Shown here piece by piece: positions 4,554 to 13,508 of a stretch of DNA of 64,000 nt. The notes below the pieces were generated by a model that saw nothing but the letters and a program-made list of their open reading frames with translations, did no database searches and was not told the DNA's origin. A program made the translations under genes and the position numbers. The first letter of the stretch is position 1; each line of letters starts with the position of its first letter. Origin of the DNA: Methanolobus sp. WCC4 (GTDB lineage: Archaea > Halobacteriota > Methanosarcinia > Methanosarcinales > Methanosarcinaceae); contig NZ_CP150629.1 of the NCBI RefSeq assembly GCF_038022665.1, positions 434,001 to 498,000 of the forward strand, given 5' to 3'.

Positions 4554-5318
4554 TCAGAGAACACGTGTCGTGGTCTCAAGCTCTATACCCTTCTGGGTCA
4601 CCATGTATGAGATCGTACGGTTAGGAACGATCATCCCACGCATCTTGCGTATCATTATGGTGCGCTCGATCTCGCTTCCACGTTCCCTTATCCTGAACTC
4701 GATGACACCATCGCAGATATGACGCAGTGTGTTCTCGGTAACGGAGTCATGCATCCCGCCTGTCATCAGTATAAGGTGGATAGCTCCGGTCGCTTTACCT
4801 ATGGAAGAGATCATCTCTATGACCTCGACGACACTGTTGAGATTATAGGCACGCAGGAAGTATGATATGGAATCTATCACACCTCTGTATTTTCGGTCCC
4901 TTGTCTGCATCGCTGTGGCCTTAAGGAGACCCATGGAATCAATTCCTTTCTTAAGGAAATCCTTTGCAGACAGATCACTGGTGTACTCCTTTGGAAGAAC
5001 ATTGTAGAAACGGGGAACGTAAGCATCCACAAATTCAAGGGTCCCATCCTCCATGTACTTCTCTACATCCCATTTCATATCCTCCATCTCCTGGACGATC
5101 TCCTTTGCAGGATGCTCGGAGGTGAAATAGAATACATCCTCATCGTTCAAAAGCCCGCCATAGACGAATTGCTGGGCGAACATATCAGAATTGGCACCAG
5201 GCTCTGCAAGAATGAGTATCGTTGCTCCAGGAGGCACGCCTCCACCAAGTTGTACATCGAGTCCTCCTATACCTGTCGGGATCCTGTATCCGCCAGTACC
5301 ATCAAAACTATAATCCAT
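4554..5318 (-). CDS. KaiC/RadA-like protein with degenerate P-loop
   Basis: A 254-residue RecA-superfamily domain of the archaeal KaiC-like type. The N-terminal signature (RIPTGIGGLDVQLGGGVPPG) is intact. The Walker A position reads AEPGANSDMFA around residues 38-48 and lacks the GK[ST] residues, so ATP binding is probably weakened or lost. The true KaiC-like ATPases at 30.1 and 31.3 kb in this window keep GEPGTGKT. It may act as a non-catalytic regulatory partner. The ATG at 5318 is chosen because an AGGGGTG site precedes it; an in-frame GTG lies three codons upstream. It is divergent from hisI. Confidence 0.75.
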   Translation of the reverse strand: MDYSFDGTGGYRIPTGIGGLDVQLGGGVPPGATILILAEPGANSDMFAQQFVYGGLLNDEDVFYFTSEHPAKEIVQEMEDMKWDVEKYMEDGTLEFVDAYVPRFYNVLPKEYTSDLSAKDFLKKGIDSMGLLKATAMQTRDRKYRGVIDSISYFLRAYNLNSVVEVIEMISSIGKATGAIHLILMTGGMHDSVTENTLRHICDGVIEFRIRERGSEIERTIMIRKMRGMIVPNRTISYMVTQKGIELETTTRVL

Positions 5319-5415
5319 TAATTGCACCCCTGTGATAAGTCTATTATTTTGATACCAATTATATTAATAATGATAGATAATAGTATTTTATAGTATATAG
5401 CAATTAGTGATACCC
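5319..5415. promoter_or_regulatory. Divergent promoter region, KaiC-like gene and hisI
   Basis: This 97-base AT-rich interval separates two divergent starts. TATA-like sequences occur on both strands (for example TTTTATAGTATATA at about 5387-5400 for hisI). The plus-strand GTGAT at 5407-5411 serves as the hisI ribosome binding site. Confidence 0.45.
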
Positions 5416-5967: not shown

Positions 5968-7815
5968 ATGACCATGGAAGAGAGTATGGACAACAGGCAG
6001 ATAGTCGTCCCTGACACAAGTGCAGTCATCGATGGGATCCTTTCAGGAAGGATACGCAATGGTGAACTTGGGGACGTTGATATTCATATACCTGAAGCTG
6101 TTATGGCCGAACTGGAAGCACAGGCCAACAGGGGACTTGAGATAGGATACAAAGGACTGGAGGAGGTGCAGGAACTCCAGCGTTATGCAGAGAAAGGCAA
6201 CATCGGATTATTCTTCACAGGACTCAGGCCGAATCCCGATCAGGTCAGGCTCGCAAAGGGCGGCGAGATAGATGCCCTTATCAGAGGAACAGCAGAGGAA
6301 CTTAAAGCAAAGTTCGTAACCGGGGACAGGGTCCAGTCACTTGTTGCAAAGGCAAAGGGACTGGATGTGGACTTCGAGAAACCTCCAATGGAGGAGTTCG
6401 GTCCGCTGCTGGTGGATGAGTTCTTCACACCTGACACGATGTCAGTGCATCTGAAACACAAGGTGTCCCCAATGGCCAAGAGAGGGTCCATCGGGAATGT
6501 CAAATATGAGAAGATAAGGGACGAGCCCTGCACATACGGCGAACTCAAAATGATATCCAGAGAACTGCTGGAAAGAGCACGTTCCGACCTTGAATCTTTC
6601 AGTGAGATGTCGTTCAACGGTGCAACGGTACTCCAGATCAGGAACATGAGGATAGCCATATCCAACCCGCCTTTTTCAGATGACATAGAGATCACCATTG
6701 TAAGACCGATAGCATCTGTGTCACTTGAACAGTACCGTCTGAGCGATGTACTGAAGGAAAGGATACGAACCCAGAGAGGAATATTGATTGCAGGACCACC
6801 CGGAGCGGGAAAATCCACATTTGCAGCCGGGGTTGCTACATACCTGAACGACAAAGGATTCGTCGTCAAGACAATGGAATCACCACGTGACCTGCAGGTA
6901 CCTCAGGAGATCACACAATATGCACCTCTTGACGGCAGCCTTGAGAACACTGCTGATGTGCTCCTGCTTGTTCGTCCTGATTATACCATCTATGACGAGG
7001 TACGCAAGACAAAGGATTTCGAGATATTCGCGGATATGAGACTGGCAGGCGTGGGTATGTTAGGTGTTGTCCATGCGAACCGCGCAGTTGATGCCATCCA
7101 GAGACTTATCGGCAGGGTGGAGCTTGGTGTGATACCACAGGTTGTTGATACTGTGATATTCATCGACAAGGGAGAGATCGCCAAGGTGCAGGTGCTCGAG
7201 TTCACCGTAAAGGTTCCTGCCGGTATGATGGAAGCGGACCTCGCAAGACCGGTCATCCTTGTATCTGACCTTGAGACAGGAAAGAGCGAGTTCGAGATCT
7301 ACACCTACGGAGAACAGGTCGTTGTCATGCCCCTCGGAAATGAACAGCAGAGAAGCCCTTCATGGAAGCTCGCTGAAAGTGAGGTAAAGGACTTCATCAG
7401 CAGCTATGCAAGCGGACCTGTAGAGGTCGAGATGACATCTGATAACCGTGCCCTTGTCCATGTGAAGGACAAGGACCTTCCAAAGATAATAGGAAAAGGC
7501 GGCAAGACGATCGCTGATATTGAGAGGGCACTGGGCATTCATATCGATGTACGCAAGTTCGAATCAGGTGAGGAACGCAAGATGCGTGAGAACAGGGAAC
7601 ATCACCCGATAATCGAACGCTCGAAGAAGCATGTCATACTGAACATTCCTGATGCGTCCGGACGTGATGTGGAGGTCTATGCAGGCGAAGGATTCCTATT
7701 CTCAGCAACCATCGGCAGGCACGGAGACATCAAGGTGAGGGCGGATTCTGAACTGGCCTATGATATTCTGGATGCTATGAGAGAGGGAGAGGTCATCTGG
7801 GTGAAGGAGGTATGA
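5968..7815 (+). CDS. PIN domain-PilT/VirB11-type ATPase-KH domain protein
   Basis: A 615-residue archaeal protein. Residues about 10-150 form a PIN nuclease-like domain (VVPDTSAVIDG, EIDALIRGTA, FVTGDRVQ supply the acidic residues). Residues about 255-430 are a secretion-type ATPase with Walker A GPPGAGKST and the usual YTIYDEVRK and HANRAVDAIQR motifs. Residues about 495-545 form a KH domain (LPKIIGKGGKTIADIE). This combination is widespread in Euryarchaeota. Its role is not settled; RNA binding or processing driven by ATP is plausible. A TATA box at 5944-5951 lies 20-26 bases before ATGs at 5968 and 5974, so translation is probably leaderless from one of these. Confidence 0.88.
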   Translation: MTMEESMDNRQIVVPDTSAVIDGILSGRIRNGELGDVDIHIPEAVMAELEAQANRGLEIGYKGLEEVQELQRYAEKGNIGLFFTGLRPNPDQVRLAKGGEIDALIRGTAEELKAKFVTGDRVQSLVAKAKGLDVDFEKPPMEEFGPLLVDEFFTPDTMSVHLKHKVSPMAKRGSIGNVKYEKIRDEPCTYGELKMISRELLERARSDLESFSEMSFNGATVLQIRNMRIAISNPPFSDDIEITIVRPIASVSLEQYRLSDVLKERIRTQRGILIAGPPGAGKSTFAAGVATYLNDKGFVVKTMESPRDLQVPQEITQYAPLDGSLENTADVLLLVRPDYTIYDEVRKTKDFEIFADMRLAGVGMLGVVHANRAVDAIQRLIGRVELGVIPQVVDTVIFIDKGEIAKVQVLEFTVKVPAGMMEADLARPVILVSDLETGKSEFEIYTYGEQVVVMPLGNEQQRSPSWKLAESEVKDFISSYASGPVEVEMTSDNRALVHVKDKDLPKIIGKGGKTIADIERALGIHIDVRKFESGEERKMRENREHHPIIERSKKHVILNIPDASGRDVEVYAGEGFLFSATIGRHGDIKVRADSELAYDILDAMREGEVIWVKEV

Positions 7816-7906: not shown

Positions 7907-9472
7907 ATGGAAATTGACGTCAAATGTGACTACGAGATACTTCCAGACAATAATCTAGCTTTTAAAGTAAAGGTCACAAACAACACGGACCTGGTCATCT
8001 CCAACGTTCATGTAACAATTGATCACACCGAATCATTTTTCGAGTTGCAGGGAGAGAGCAGTCAGAGACTGGGGCTTATTCCACCCGCCATCACAAGAAC
8101 ATCGGAGTTCATACTAAAGCCACTTGGGTGTATCCACATGGATAACATCGAAGCAAACCTGACCTATCGGGACCACAGATGGGAAAAGCATACTATAACT
8201 GTCAGATCAGAAGAAGTTCATTGTATCTACCCATTCCTCCGTCCCAGACCAATGGCCAGAAATGAATTCCTGGAATATTTCAAAGCCTGGGACCCGATAG
8301 AGACCGGAATTAACTTTGAAGACATCGGTGTTGAAAAGATCACATCATCCCTTATACAGATGTCTCGAAACCGTTTCCATATTGTAGATGGAAGTAAGAC
8401 AGAACAGGGCAATGTCATCTATTTTTCAGCCGAGTCTACAGATAAAGAAGTCTGCTACCTGTTAAAGGCACTTGTCAGAGAGGAACACGGACAGACACAG
8501 GTCATGTTCAGGGCAGCATCAGACAGAACAAATGAGACACAGGAGTTCCTGAATGAGATCGTTCCTGAACTCAGGAAGTTTGTCAGTAACGTGAATTCTG
8601 CAAAAGACACCGGCACCATAAAGAAAGAACATGTTATCAGCATAGGGAATCCCGTTGTACATGAAACTGATAACCGTGCAGGCAGCAGGAACAGGCAAAT
8701 TAGCAGACGAAATAGTGTCCCCCCCGGAACCAGAGCAGGAACGAGACAGTCAGTAGGATCTGGTAGTATGAACCACAGAAGTGGTTCTGAAGAGGAAGAA
8801 GATGTTGCCAGAATGTATGATGCATACCTGAGAGAGGTAAAAGGCAAGACCATTGATATAGAAAAGAAAGAGGCTGTAGTCCTTCCAAGCAATACTCAAA
8901 GGACAGGGGATGAGGACAGAAAAATAAGAAAGTTCCGTGGAATGACATCTCCATCAAGGAAAAGAACGAAAGAGACAAAACCAGTAAGAAATAAGAAAAA
9001 ACTGGTCATAAATGCAATGGTCTCTCTTATTGTCCTGACCCTTCTCATGGGATTTGCTGTAAATAATCCTTTTATAATGGAAAGCCTCGGCGGTTCTATC
9101 CCTGCGGGACCTGTTCCTGCCGAATCTGTGACCATAGATTTCCTGAATGCAGTGAATAATAGTGACTTCCATACTGCTTTCAGCATGTGTCAGGGAAAGG
9201 ACTTCCTTGCAGTTGCGAGCGTCCAGATGATCTTCACAAACAGAGGGATCGAGGGAGGAAGCATCAGGCAGATAGAAGTCCTGTCAAAGGATGTTGCAGA
9301 TGACATTGCTGTTGTGGATGTCGAATGTACTGTTGCTATTTTAGATTCCTATGGAAAAGAGGAAGATATAGAGGTTATGCCAATTTTCTTCCTGTTGCAG
9401 GATTCGGAACAAGGGTGGGCGATCACACAGATATCGTTCACTGAACCATTTGTGACCCGGGCCGAAGAGTGA
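7907..9472 (+). CDS. Membrane protein: cytoplasmic conserved module, one TM, DUF4878-like external domain
   Basis: Function unknown, 521 residues. Residues 1-250 align without gaps to the next gene. Residues 1-105 look beta-rich and Ig-like (VKVTNNTDLVISNVHVTID), and residues 106-235 form a second domain. A charged linker with RMYDAYLREVK (302-312) leads to one membrane helix at about 366-385, preceded by Lys/Arg, so the N-terminus should be inside. Residues about 405-520 (SVTIDFLNAVNNSDFHTAFSM...) resemble the NTF2-like DUF4878 fold and would face outward. A TATA element at 7871-7880 gives a nearly leaderless ATG. It is the first of a tandem paralog pair. Confidence 0.72.
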   Translation: MEIDVKCDYEILPDNNLAFKVKVTNNTDLVISNVHVTIDHTESFFELQGESSQRLGLIPPAITRTSEFILKPLGCIHMDNIEANLTYRDHRWEKHTITVRSEEVHCIYPFLRPRPMARNEFLEYFKAWDPIETGINFEDIGVEKITSSLIQMSRNRFHIVDGSKTEQGNVIYFSAESTDKEVCYLLKALVREEHGQTQVMFRAASDRTNETQEFLNEIVPELRKFVSNVNSAKDTGTIKKEHVISIGNPVVHETDNRAGSRNRQISRRNSVPPGTRAGTRQSVGSGSMNHRSGSEEEEDVARMYDAYLREVKGKTIDIEKKEAVVLPSNTQRTGDEDRKIRKFRGMTSPSRKRTKETKPVRNKKKLVINAMVSLIVLTLLMGFAVNNPFIMESLGGSIPAGPVPAESVTIDFLNAVNNSDFHTAFSMCQGKDFLAVASVQMIFTNRGIEGGSIRQIEVLSKDVADDIAVVDVECTVAILDSYGKEEDIEVMPIFFLLQDSEQGWAITQISFTEPFVTRAEE

Positions 9473-9582: not shown

Positions 9583-11319
9583 ATGGGTATTGGCATTAAA
9601 CGCGGGTATGAGACCCTCCCCAACAATGATGTGATGTTCGGGGTCAGGGTAACCAATGATAGTGATCTTGTGATATCAGACGTACAGGTCATCCTTGATC
9701 ACAACGAGTCACTTTTCAGCTTACAGGGAGACAGGATACAGAAACTGGACAACATCCCGCCGACCATACCGAGGACTGCAAAGTTCATTTTGAAACCACT
9801 TGGTTGCGTCCACAAAGAGAACATCGAGGCAACCATCAGTTATCGTGACCATAAATGGGAGAAGCATATGGTCAGCATGCGGCCAAAGGAGGTACATTGT
9901 GTATGTCCTTTCCTGCGGGCAAAACCAACAACGAGGAAAGAATTCCTCAATCTCACTGAGAAGGGTCACTCCATAGAAACTGGAATGAACTTCGAAGGAA
10001 TAGGTGCCGAAGAGATAATCTCTTTTTTGATGCAGACATGTTCCACACGCCTCTATATTGTGGATAACTATCCTGTCAACGAAGGCAATATCATCTATTT
10101 CTCAGGTGAGTCCATAGGTGAGAAGGCATACTACCTGCTCACGGTCCTTGTTAAAGAGAACGAAGGACTCACTCAGATAATGTGCCGGGCGGTCTCGGAT
10201 AAGACCCACGGGATACATGGGTTCCTCAATGAGATCGTCTTTGAGCTGAAACACCTTGTCAATACAGTCAACTCAGCAAAGGAGATAGGGATCATAAGGA
10301 ACGAACAGGTCATCAATATCATCGATTCAGTGGTTCAGAGAACAAATTTCTCCACAGGACCCGGCAGCGGTTCTGTCAACATACAGGACAGCGTTGTGCA
10401 GAGAAGCGAGATCAGGCCGGGTCCACCATCTATACCTGCGGCTGCAGCAGTTCCAGCGGAAAATGAGGTGGTCGACCAGAAGTACGATGCATATATGGAA
10501 GAGATCAAGACCAGGAAAAAAGATGAGGAGCGGAGAAAGACAGTAGCCTCCGGTTCAGACCCGGGCGATCCAAAGAGCAGCAAAAAGAAGCTGCTGATGC
10601 CTCTCATGCTGGTATTCGCTGCATTTCTGGCAGGTTATCTGCTGGATAGCACACTGTTCATTGATGGTTCAGGCGATGACAACACAATATATCCTTCCAC
10701 ACAGGCATCCATTGTTGCGAGCACCCAGACAACTCAGGGAGAAGCTCCCAGCATGTACATAAAATACATTTATGGGAACAGGGCGAAGAACTCTGCTTCT
10801 GACATGTCCGATACCATCGACCTCCTGTGGGTGAAGGTCGGTCTGAACAGTGGCAGTGTGCCCATTGATATGACAGGGATGAGGATATTCGTGAGTGACG
10901 GGACGAATACCAATGAACTTGTCTATGCAGGAAGCGATGATTCCTTCGGTACTATGACCGAGTATTCTCCAAAGAACCTCAGGAGACTCCTCACCACTTC
11001 AGGGAACGCTGAGAACTATTTCACTGCTGAGGTAGTCCATGACAGCGACTCATCATTCTCGCAGACCAAGCCAATCATGAATGCAGGGGACCACATAGCA
11101 GCCCTTGTGTCAACGAGCTCTGACTCAGCCGCATCTGGCGGATACTACAAGCTCAGGGGAATTGATGTGTCCTCAGGACTTGAAAGGTCAGGACTTGATA
11201 TCGGACCGGGAACTACTGTGAGTATAATAATAAAGGGAGAAACAGGAACACTTGTAAGCACTGAAATAGTCACACCTTCATCTTACGGAACTGAGGAAAC
11301 GATATATCTCTACCCATGA
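9583..11319 (+). CDS. Membrane protein: cytoplasmic conserved module, one TM, archaellin-like external domain
   Basis: A 578-residue paralog of the preceding gene. Residues 1-250 match it position for position. Residues 245-280 hold two copies of an xDSVVQR motif, and YDAYMEEIK occurs at 301-309. One membrane helix lies at about 336-354 after SSKKK. Residues about 385-578 resemble the globular domain of archaellins: DTIDLLWVKVGLNSGSVPID, RIFVSDGT, PIMNAGDHIAAL, a PGTTVSIIIKGE strand and the final TPSSYG. The class III signal peptide and assembly helix of archaellin are absent; the domain is tethered by the new anchor. A sensor or adhesion role is possible but not shown. A TATA element lies about 28 bases before the ATG. 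Confidence 0.72.
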   Translation: MGIGIKRGYETLPNNDVMFGVRVTNDSDLVISDVQVILDHNESLFSLQGDRIQKLDNIPPTIPRTAKFILKPLGCVHKENIEATISYRDHKWEKHMVSMRPKEVHCVCPFLRAKPTTRKEFLNLTEKGHSIETGMNFEGIGAEEIISFLMQTCSTRLYIVDNYPVNEGNIIYFSGESIGEKAYYLLTVLVKENEGLTQIMCRAVSDKTHGIHGFLNEIVFELKHLVNTVNSAKEIGIIRNEQVINIIDSVVQRTNFSTGPGSGSVNIQDSVVQRSEIRPGPPSIPAAAAVPAENEVVDQKYDAYMEEIKTRKKDEERRKTVASGSDPGDPKSSKKKLLMPLMLVFAAFLAGYLLDSTLFIDGSGDDNTIYPSTQASIVASTQTTQGEAPSMYIKYIYGNRAKNSASDMSDTIDLLWVKVGLNSGSVPIDMTGMRIFVSDGTNTNELVYAGSDDSFGTMTEYSPKNLRRLLTTSGNAENYFTAEVVHDSDSSFSQTKPIMNAGDHIAALVSTSSDSAASGGYYKLRGIDVSSGLERSGLDIGPGTTVSIIIKGETGTLVSTEIVTPSSYGTEETIYLYP

Positions 11320-11353: not shown

Positions 11354-11797
11354 TTACTTCTTTGACTTGCTGTCGAACAGTTCCTTTGCGCTCTCAGCAC
11401 ATGCGATAGCATCTTTCTTTATCTGGCACTCCCAGAAGACCATCACGTCCCAGCCTTCAGCTTCAAGAGCTGCTTTTTTCTTTGCGTCCCTTTCTTTGTT
11501 CTTCCTGAACTTCTCAGCCCAGAAATCGGTATTTGATCTGGGGAGAGGCAGGTCACAGTGTGGGCAGCGATGCCAATAACAGCCATGAACGAAGATGGCT
11601 ATCTTCTTTCCGGGATAGGCGATATCAGGCCTGCCTGGCACCTTCTTCCAGTGAAGACGATATCCCGGGATGCCTACTTCCCTCAGTGCCTTCCTGAAGA
11701 TGATCTCGGGTTTGGTGTTCTTCCCGGTGTTCGCGCTCATCACTCTGGATGTGGTCTCGGACTCGGGGATGGGGGCACGGCCGTCTCTGATATACAT
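11354..11797 (-). CDS. vsr: Very-short-patch-repair (Vsr) endonuclease
   Basis: Nicks DNA at T:G mismatches left by deamination of 5-methylcytosine. At 147 residues it has the family length. It shows SRVMSANTGKNTKPEI near the N-terminus, the catalytic GRPDIAYPGKKIAIFVHG stretch, the zinc-type YWHRCPHCDLP, and SNTDFWAEKFRKNKERD. It is divergent from a C5 cytosine methyltransferase that starts 86 bases away, the expected partnership. Vsr genes are sporadic in archaea and usually move with restriction-modification loci, so acquisition by transfer is likely. Confidence 0.93.
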   Translation of the reverse strand: MYIRDGRAPIPESETTSRVMSANTGKNTKPEIIFRKALREVGIPGYRLHWKKVPGRPDIAYPGKKIAIFVHGCYWHRCPHCDLPLPRSNTDFWAEKFRKNKERDAKKKAALEAEGWDVMVFWECQIKKDAIACAESAKELFDSKSKK

Positions 11798-11882
11798 GTT
11801 GTCAGAATATTTGTGGCGGAGGTATAAAAGGCAACCCTATTGGATCGAAGGTGTTATATTTCTAAAGGTCATTTCATGGAGC

Positions 11883-13508
11883 ATGACCAAAAGGCGACTG
11901 ACAGCGGCAGATTTCTTCTGCGGGGGCGGTGGATTCTCGGAAGGATTCAGACAGAACGGTTTTGAACTGCTCTTTGCCCTTGATAGCTGGCAGCCTGCCA
12001 TTGATACACATCATCTCAACCATCCGGATTGCAATGCGGTCAGGATGGATATCCTTGAACTCGATACCCCGGAGAAGATAGACGAATTCGTTCCTGACGT
12101 GGACGTGCTTATCGGAAGTCCTCCCTGTGTCTCGTTCTCCGGTTCTAACAAAGCAGGAAAAGCCGATAAGAGCCTTGGTATCCAGCTTATCGAAGCATAT
12201 CTAAGGATAATCGCGTGGAAGAAGAGCAAGGGCCAGCTAAAGTACTGGTTGCTGGAGAACGTCCCCAATGCAGGGAACTATGTTAAGGACAGATACACGT
12301 GGAAGGAACTCGGACTTCCGGGAAGCGGGGATGACCTTATTGTTGAGAGGAAAGAGGTGTTCAATGCAGCGTACTATGGCGCACCTCAGGCAAGGAAGAG
12401 ATTCGTTTGCGGGGATTTCCCTCTCCCGGAACCCACATGCAGTGATGAGTCCGAATTCACCACCACACGACAGGTGCTTGAGGCTTTGAGGAATCCTTTT
12501 GAGAAGGACCATAGCGGAACCATAAGCGACCCGAGCTATGACCTGTCCGTGCCGGCTGATTCACTGACCGACCATTTCTATGACACGCGTGTGGCTGAGT
12601 TCGAGTGGAAGAAGGCCAGAAGGATGAAGGAGGACCACGGATTCATGGGGAAGATGTCATTCCCTGAGGATCTGGACCGTCCGAGCAGGACCGTCATGGC
12701 TACAATGTCGGCGTCTACCAGAGAGGCCATGATACTTGATGCTGTGGGAGAGGATGGAGAACATATCGGGTATCGCCTGCCCACCATCAGGGAAATCGCC
12801 TCTTTCATGTCGTTCCCGATCACATACCAGTTCCAGGCCAACAATGAGAGTTCCAAGTACAGGCTTGTGGGCAATGCAGTATGCTCCCGCCTGTCCTCTG
12901 CACTTGCAAGGGCAATCCTCATAGAGGAAGGTATCGAGCCGCCTGAGAAGTTCATCCCGCTGCCGGATACAAGACCGAACGTGGACCTCAGGGGCACTAA
13001 GAGGAAGCTGAAGACAGAGAACAAGAAAAAAACTGATGCAAAGTTCGCGATCCACATCCCCTACATAAAGATAAGGGGATTCAGGGTGGAGCTTAGCAAT
13101 AAGGACTCCGATTTTGAAAAAGGCGATATCAAATGGTCCTGCATCCTGCATCAGGGAAGTGGCAAGAATGCCCTGAAGTGCAGCCCGGATGACTGTGACA
13201 TGACAGGGCTGGTCCAGCAGATTCCCGGTTTCGATGGGTTCAAAGAAGACGTTCATGAAATGTTCAGTGAACTGGATATGGACCATACGCATCTTCAGGA
13301 GGCCTATGTTGCCAGATGCGAGAGCGAGTACATCACACCGGAACAGGCACTGGACATGATGAAGGAACTTGTGGACAGGCATTTCCCTGAGGAGGATGCC
13401 TTTGTGGACAATTCCGACAGGATGATCGCTATAGACAGGGACAGGGTTCCTGTGAGGGTGATCGCGGGTATGTATGCCTGTGATTATTTTGTTGAGTGCC
13501 TGGATTAA
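11883..13508 (+). CDS. dcm: DNA (cytosine-5) methyltransferase with C-terminal extension
   Basis: Transfers methyl from SAM to C5 of cytosine. The 541 residues begin at the ATG just before the SAM motif I (ADFFCGGGGFSEGF). The catalytic loop is GSPPCVSFSG (motif IV), followed by LLENVPN (VI), QARKRFVCGDF (VIII) and RLVGNAV (X). The methyltransferase core ends near residue 360. The remaining roughly 180 residues (KIRGFRVELSNKD, ILHQGSGKNALKCSPDDCD) are not part of the standard core and may recognise DNA or a partner. An open frame extends back to 11670 over vsr but lacks homology, so I rejected that start. A hairpin terminator follows at 13535. Confidence 0.93.
   Translation: MTKRRLTAADFFCGGGGFSEGFRQNGFELLFALDSWQPAIDTHHLNHPDCNAVRMDILELDTPEKIDEFVPDVDVLIGSPPCVSFSGSNKAGKADKSLGIQLIEAYLRIIAWKKSKGQLKYWLLENVPNAGNYVKDRYTWKELGLPGSGDDLIVERKEVFNAAYYGAPQARKRFVCGDFPLPEPTCSDESEFTTTRQVLEALRNPFEKDHSGTISDPSYDLSVPADSLTDHFYDTRVAEFEWKKARRMKEDHGFMGKMSFPEDLDRPSRTVMATMSASTREAMILDAVGEDGEHIGYRLPTIREIASFMSFPITYQFQANNESSKYRLVGNAVCSRLSSALARAILIEEGIEPPEKFIPLPDTRPNVDLRGTKRKLKTENKKKTDAKFAIHIPYIKIRGFRVELSNKDSDFEKGDIKWSCILHQGSGKNALKCSPDDCDMTGLVQQIPGFDGFKEDVHEMFSELDMDHTHLQEAYVARCESEYITPEQALDMMKELVDRHFPEEDAFVDNSDRMIAIDRDRVPVRVIAGMYACDYFVECLD

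Follow-up and report, generated by a model that had tools for sequence, protein, structure and literature searches.

ESCRT loci of the Meth_adaptin type are already known, having been published by Makarova et al. in 2024 (PMC11188069). In these loci, an appendage protein is joined via a transmembrane (TM) linker to a GOLD domain, and described examples are the appendage-TM-GOLD protein WP_013898578 and the appendage-Zn-ribbon protein WP_013898571 (PMC11188069). In eukaryotes, the appendage (ear) fold serves as a hub for protein interactions (PMC11188069), and appendage domains have this role in vesicle coats. The stator proteins ArlF and ArlG, for their part, reuse the archaellin beta-domain on the outer side of the membrane (PMC8667602). 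Here, we describe a gene of Methanolobus sp. WCC4 whose product pairs an ear with an archaellin domain. Literature searches on archaellin with adaptin and on archaellin-domain fusions yielded no such protein, and the repeated origin of the pairing hints at a connection, so far undescribed, between structures of the cell surface and adaptor proteins of the cytoplasm.

The fused gene occupies positions 9583–11319 (+) of the window, that is, the whole stretch of 64,000 nucleotides that was analyzed, and encodes 578 amino acids from an ATG start to the stop codon at 11317..11319 (+). Its product begins with a cytoplasmic appendage (adaptin-ear-like) domain of residues 1–232 (9583..10278, +), assigned from an AlphaFold2 (AF2) model, Foldseek and homology to the ESCRT locus, followed by a linker with two DSVVQR repeats at residues 248 and 269 (10324..10407, +), a motif recognized by a genome-wide count. 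A TM helix at residues 337–355 (10591..10647, +), with a hydropathy of 2.04 and a KKK on its N-terminal flank, gives an N-in/C-out orientation; this agrees within one residue with the single helix that the sequence-only reading had placed at 336–354. The C-terminal part, residues 388–578 (10744..11316, +), is an archaellin outer domain, predicted to be extracellular and free of N-glycosylation sequons. Six relatives have the reversed order, in which a signal peptide-like segment and the ectodomain precede the TM helix, positively charged residues and the ear; this order supports a topology with the ear inside and its partner outside. We tentatively regard the WCC4 protein as a single-pass membrane adaptor with a cytoplasmic ear and an archaellin domain outside.

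Upstream of the fused gene lies a tandem paralogue of 521 aa (7907..9472, +), composed of an appendage domain, a TM helix at residues 367–385 and an NTF2-like ectodomain at about 396–521. It shares 48% identity with the fused protein over residues 2–326, and its NTF2-like segment is also present in fused relatives. The conserved neighbor further upstream encodes, according to Pfam, a PIN-T2SSE-type ATPase-KH protein (5968..7815, +), and the gene order HisI, PIN/KH ATPase, appendage gene is kept in 12 Methanolobus genomes. A KaiC/ArlH-like ATPase at 4554–5327 (−) adjoins HisI at a position that is conserved in the genus, with ArlH scores well under the cut-off. Directly 3ʹ of the fused gene, window positions 11354–13508 encode a Vsr-like endonuclease and a DNA cytosine methyltransferase, the latter also being found at the equivalent site in M. 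profundi.

The identity of the C-terminal domain, which the sequence-only reading had likened to the outer domain of archaellins at 385–578, was borne out by profile and structure searches, in which archaellins came first and no other fold scored better. Residues 374–574 matched the NCBIfam flagellin profile NF006325 with an E value of 4e-17. Against Pfam Arch_flagellin, the WCC4 copy reached an E value of 3e-6 and 28.0 bits, just below the cut-off of 29.5 bits, which was passed by the four relatives checked (L077, L079, L069 and L120). Compared with 31 archaellins from the genus and the family, the WCC4 tail is 36–49% identical over about 200 aa. The AF2 model of residues 370–578 had a pLDDT of 86, and its best PDB match was archaellin 7ofq_B (E 1.6e-11); all of the top 24 PDB matches were archaellins or ArlF/ArlG, led by archaellins of Methanocaldococcus, Oxiplasma, Methanococcus, Halobacterium and Pyrococcus. 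Taken together, profiles, identity and model establish residues 388–578 as a true archaellin outer domain. The alignments start at position 37–53 of the Pfam profile, indicating that the signal peptide and the N-terminal helix are missing, as had been proposed, with an unrelated TM helix and linker in place of the archaellin helix.

Compared with the ArlB-type archaellins of Methanolobus, the fused protein has an outer domain 36–49% identical to theirs and the same C-terminus, SSYG...LYP, whereas it lacks the class III signal peptide, the polymerising helix and the sequons that these archaellins carry and has an extra cytoplasmic domain that they do not. As the polymerising helix is gone, the fused protein is not expected to serve as a filament subunit. 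ArlF and ArlG also match the model of the WCC4 archaellin domain structurally, but they are short, encoded in the arl operon, and retain at the N-terminus a short TM helix of the pilin type but have no cytoplasmic domain, whereas the fused protein is long and encoded away from arl genes; its archaellin domain is nearer to filament archaellins than to ArlF/ArlG.

Archaellin tails were found in 7 of the 27 genomes surveyed in the genus, whose named members are Methanolobus, and in one Methanoperedens, while archaellin matches were present in all 27, indicating that the tail is dispensable for archaella. The carriers are WCC4, G101 (M. bombayensis), G039, G061 (M. profundi), G072, G085 and G087. 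Most of the fusions in the first four genomes lie at the conserved locus of HisI and the PIN/KH ATPase (in G101, the contig stops at the fused gene), and those in G072, G085 and G087 lie at a second locus. Every tail was cut at the same junction, where the end of the N-terminal helix meets the beta-domain. An assembly chimera was rejected, as the fusion recurs in unrelated assemblies and has orthologues in three species. In the M. profundi fused gene, the frame is broken within an A-rich run (L069:9330-9430) that separates the ear from the TM helix; this reads as a frameshift and is possibly a sequencing error.

In a tree of 84 archaellin domains, common descent of all seven Methanolobus tails was rejected by the AU test (p 0.0002), as was a single clade of the G072/G085/G087 and G101/G039 tails when long-branch rows were left out (p 0.0026). 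Joining the WCC4 and M. profundi tails to G101/G039 gave AU p values of 0.16–0.42, and these two tails may belong there, their placement being uncertain owing to long branches. Together with an independent case in Methanoperedens, the trees and AU tests show at least three captures of tails from filament archaellins. This upholds the reuse of a filament subunit domain in the earlier proposal, whose sensor, anchor or cap for the archaellum or a pilus stays a suggestion. Recent gene conversion with resident archaellins was excluded by a dS of 1.2–2.8 between tails and the archaellins of the same genomes; an older exchange between them is possible.

Considering that archaellin genes are multicopy, the tails might have been added by illegitimate recombination without any specific role, an explanation that we regard as unlikely. 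Consistent with it, the distribution of tails is patchy, and G039 has its tail in common with G101, whereas the scaffold of G039 falls among tail-less relatives in the trees. The Methanoperedens case (L120) fits as well: the fused protein of 540 aa has a tail 78% identical to a filament archaellin of the same genome, and its gene is followed by a 5ʹ fragment of arlF that runs into an FGE remnant ORF, indicating that a piece of the arl operon, with the 3ʹ part of an archaellin gene and the 5ʹ end of arlF, was inserted into an ear-TM-FGE gene. As the fragment has decayed little, this insertion appears to be recent, and we therefore claim no selection for the L120 tail. The Methanolobus tails speak against a mere by-product. 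Among the matches listed, all archaellin-domain matches in Methanolobus frames longer than 330 aa were on the appendage scaffold, and no other scaffold of the genus had acquired such a tail. G072, G085 and G087 are monophyletic in the appendage, NTF2 and archaellin trees, and the dN/dS over the tail of this second-locus trio was 0.21–0.29; in these three species, the tail was inherited together under purifying selection. Synonymous sites of the WCC4 copy itself are saturated. The WCC4 copy keeps its full ORF and C-terminus intact despite a very long branch.

The near-complete loss of sequons is likewise at odds with a by-product. At least one N-glycosylation sequon was present in the domain of all 77 archaellins examined, compared to none in six of the seven Methanolobus tails, including that of WCC4, and one in the seventh (Fisher p 2e-8, with no correction for relatedness). 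Outside the archaellin domain, the ectodomain of most fused proteins still has sequons, but not that of the WCC4 copy or of G101. Sequon loss is not a general rule, since the Methanoperedens tail keeps several. In Halobacterium, truncation of archaellin N-glycans causes filaments to cluster (PMC11239922), so that a bare archaellin domain could be sticky; by analogy, bare archaellin domains may favor contact with filaments.

The AF2 model of the ear, with a pLDDT mostly of about 90 up to residue 231, shows an Ig-like sandwich (about 1–107) followed by an alpha/beta platform (about 111–232). Foldseek matched this model to the beta2-adaptin appendage 1e42 (E 7.8e-10) and to alpha-adaptin, gamma-COP appendages and BBSome domains, over about 230–247 columns. 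TM-scores were moderate (0.33–0.57), probably owing to a difference in the angle between the two subdomains. As modeled, the ear has an adaptin-appendage-like fold, an Ig-like sandwich and then a TBP-like platform. The domain described at the outset as an unrelated cytoplasmic module of 250 residues is indeed cytoplasmic; however, its folded part spans residues 1–232 and is of the appendage type rather than unrelated. The two-subdomain fold is thus predicted for the ear as for the appendages of AP2, COPI and BBSome (Foldseek E down to 8e-10), a likeness of predicted fold, as the ear sequence had no match among Pfam families or PDB sequences; the adaptor core and clathrin of eukaryotic adaptors are absent from the ear protein.

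Homology was found within the genome. Over its full length, the ear aligns with a Zn-ribbon protein encoded at 2.283 Mb (pairwise E 2e-15), which adjoins a Vps4 AAA ATPase, a Snf7-like protein, an SPFH protein and a second appendage protein, and this WCC4 locus at 2.278–2.285 Mb is of the Meth_adaptin ESCRT type (PMC11188069). DSVVQR occurs nine times in the WCC4 genome, compared to zero for the reversed control; eight occurrences are in appendage-family genes, two of which are at the ESCRT locus, and the ninth is in a PEGA-repeat, Zn-ribbon-like protein. The latter (L148:3918-5426, about 1.850 Mb) is a membrane protein ending in DSVVQRS and a Zn-ribbon-like Cys cluster, possibly another partner of the appendage family. 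Like the Meth_adaptin proteins, the fused protein has an IG+TBP appendage region and a TM linker to an extracytoplasmic domain, and the ESCRT locus of WCC4 has homologous sequence with the DSVVQRS linker motif; unlike them, it has no Zn ribbon and carries archaellin, not GOLD, as its ectodomain.

This homology and the common linker motif, together with the appendage-TM-GOLD proteins of Meth_adaptin loci, for which a similar role was proposed (PMC11188069), would suit a cargo receptor whose ear recruits Vps4, ESCRT-III or SPFH proteins to sort or shed archaellin-containing membrane. The distribution of the machinery makes such a receptor improbable. Vps4 is present in 13 of the 27 Methanolobus genomes and in three of the seven with a fusion; it was not found in the other four fused genomes, two of which are single contigs (G039 and G072), and the Zn-ribbon appendage partner is missing from the same four. 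In WCC4, the fused gene, at 0.444 Mb, is outside the ESCRT locus. ESCRT as an obligatory partner of the fused protein is ruled out by the Vps4 distribution.

We favor, with reservation, an envelope adaptor, in which the ectodomain would dock on the filament or S-layer and the ear would recruit cytoplasmic partners. The archaellin domain would sit in the pseudoperiplasm and might use the surfaces by which archaellin domains contact each other to dock on subunits of the archaellum, on ArlF/ArlG or on the S-layer, while the ear might bind short peptide motifs of its partners; in this way, the protein would tether a cytoplasmic assembly to the archaellum or envelope or set its position there, or vice versa. 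In favor of this adaptor, we count the identity of both domains and the topology, the homology to the ESCRT locus, recurrent capture at one junction and onto one scaffold, maintenance of the tail in three species, sequon loss, and the S-layer and type IV pilin domains found at the equivalent place in relatives. Against it, no arl gene adjoins the fused gene, the Methanoperedens tail keeps sequons, and archaella can do without the tail. As the FGE-sulfatase, OpuAC and TPM ectodomains of many relatives are unrelated to surface lattices, lattice docking is not a family-wide rule. The lost helix is the part needed for secretion and polymerisation, which makes the domain polymerisation-incompetent; such a domain could instead read or limit archaellin assembly and signal via the ear, whose fold is the eukaryotic interaction hub mentioned above (PMC11188069). 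We consider this sensor or antagonist very unlikely, as Pfam searches found no catalytic or known signaling domain in the WCC4 protein and no arl gene adjoins the fused gene.

A family of such envelope adaptors, with the ear and a filament or S-layer domain on opposite sides of the membrane, would constitute a physical route from archaeal surface structures to an adaptor-like cytoplasmic system. To our knowledge, the archaellin domain is otherwise reused mainly in the ArlF/ArlG stator, and its separate captures, all onto the same scaffold, amount to natural experiments on what non-polymerising archaellin domains can do. A broader proposal, which we find rather doubtful, is that Methanosarcinales and their relatives have a general envelope-adaptor system, in which ear proteins bear parts of the surface structures of the same cell (archaellin, type IV pilin, S-layer domain) as docking heads and couple filaments and the S-layer to cytoplasmic adaptor or ESCRT-like machinery.

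Relatives of the ear protein are found in Methanosarcinaceae, Methanoperedens, ANME-2 and Methanophagales. The appendage-linker-TM scaffold forms a large modular family that is related to proteins of archaeal ESCRT loci and whose ectodomains are exchangeable; it carries NTF2-like, FGE-sulfatase (10 of 36 relatives scanned), OpuAC, TPM, PQQ-propeller, S-layer, type IV pilin and archaellin domains; other Methanolobus members have the NTF2-like domain alone. A Methanoperedens appendage protein (L116:5992-7434) spans the membrane with the N-terminal helix of an archaeal type IV pilin (Pfam Pilin_N, E 2.5e-8). In two family members (L117:5977-8481 and L121:5990-7405), the TM helix is followed by an S-layer domain (PF07752), and the former has an FGE-sulfatase domain in addition. 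The ectodomains of two more appendage proteins (L085:8912-10387 and L122:5992-7500) appear cupredoxin-like by eye, with no match in Pfam. Finally, just 3ʹ of the archaellin gene cluster, a lipoprotein-like ORF (L086:12173-13126, about 1.747 Mb) contains the same NTF2-like domain.
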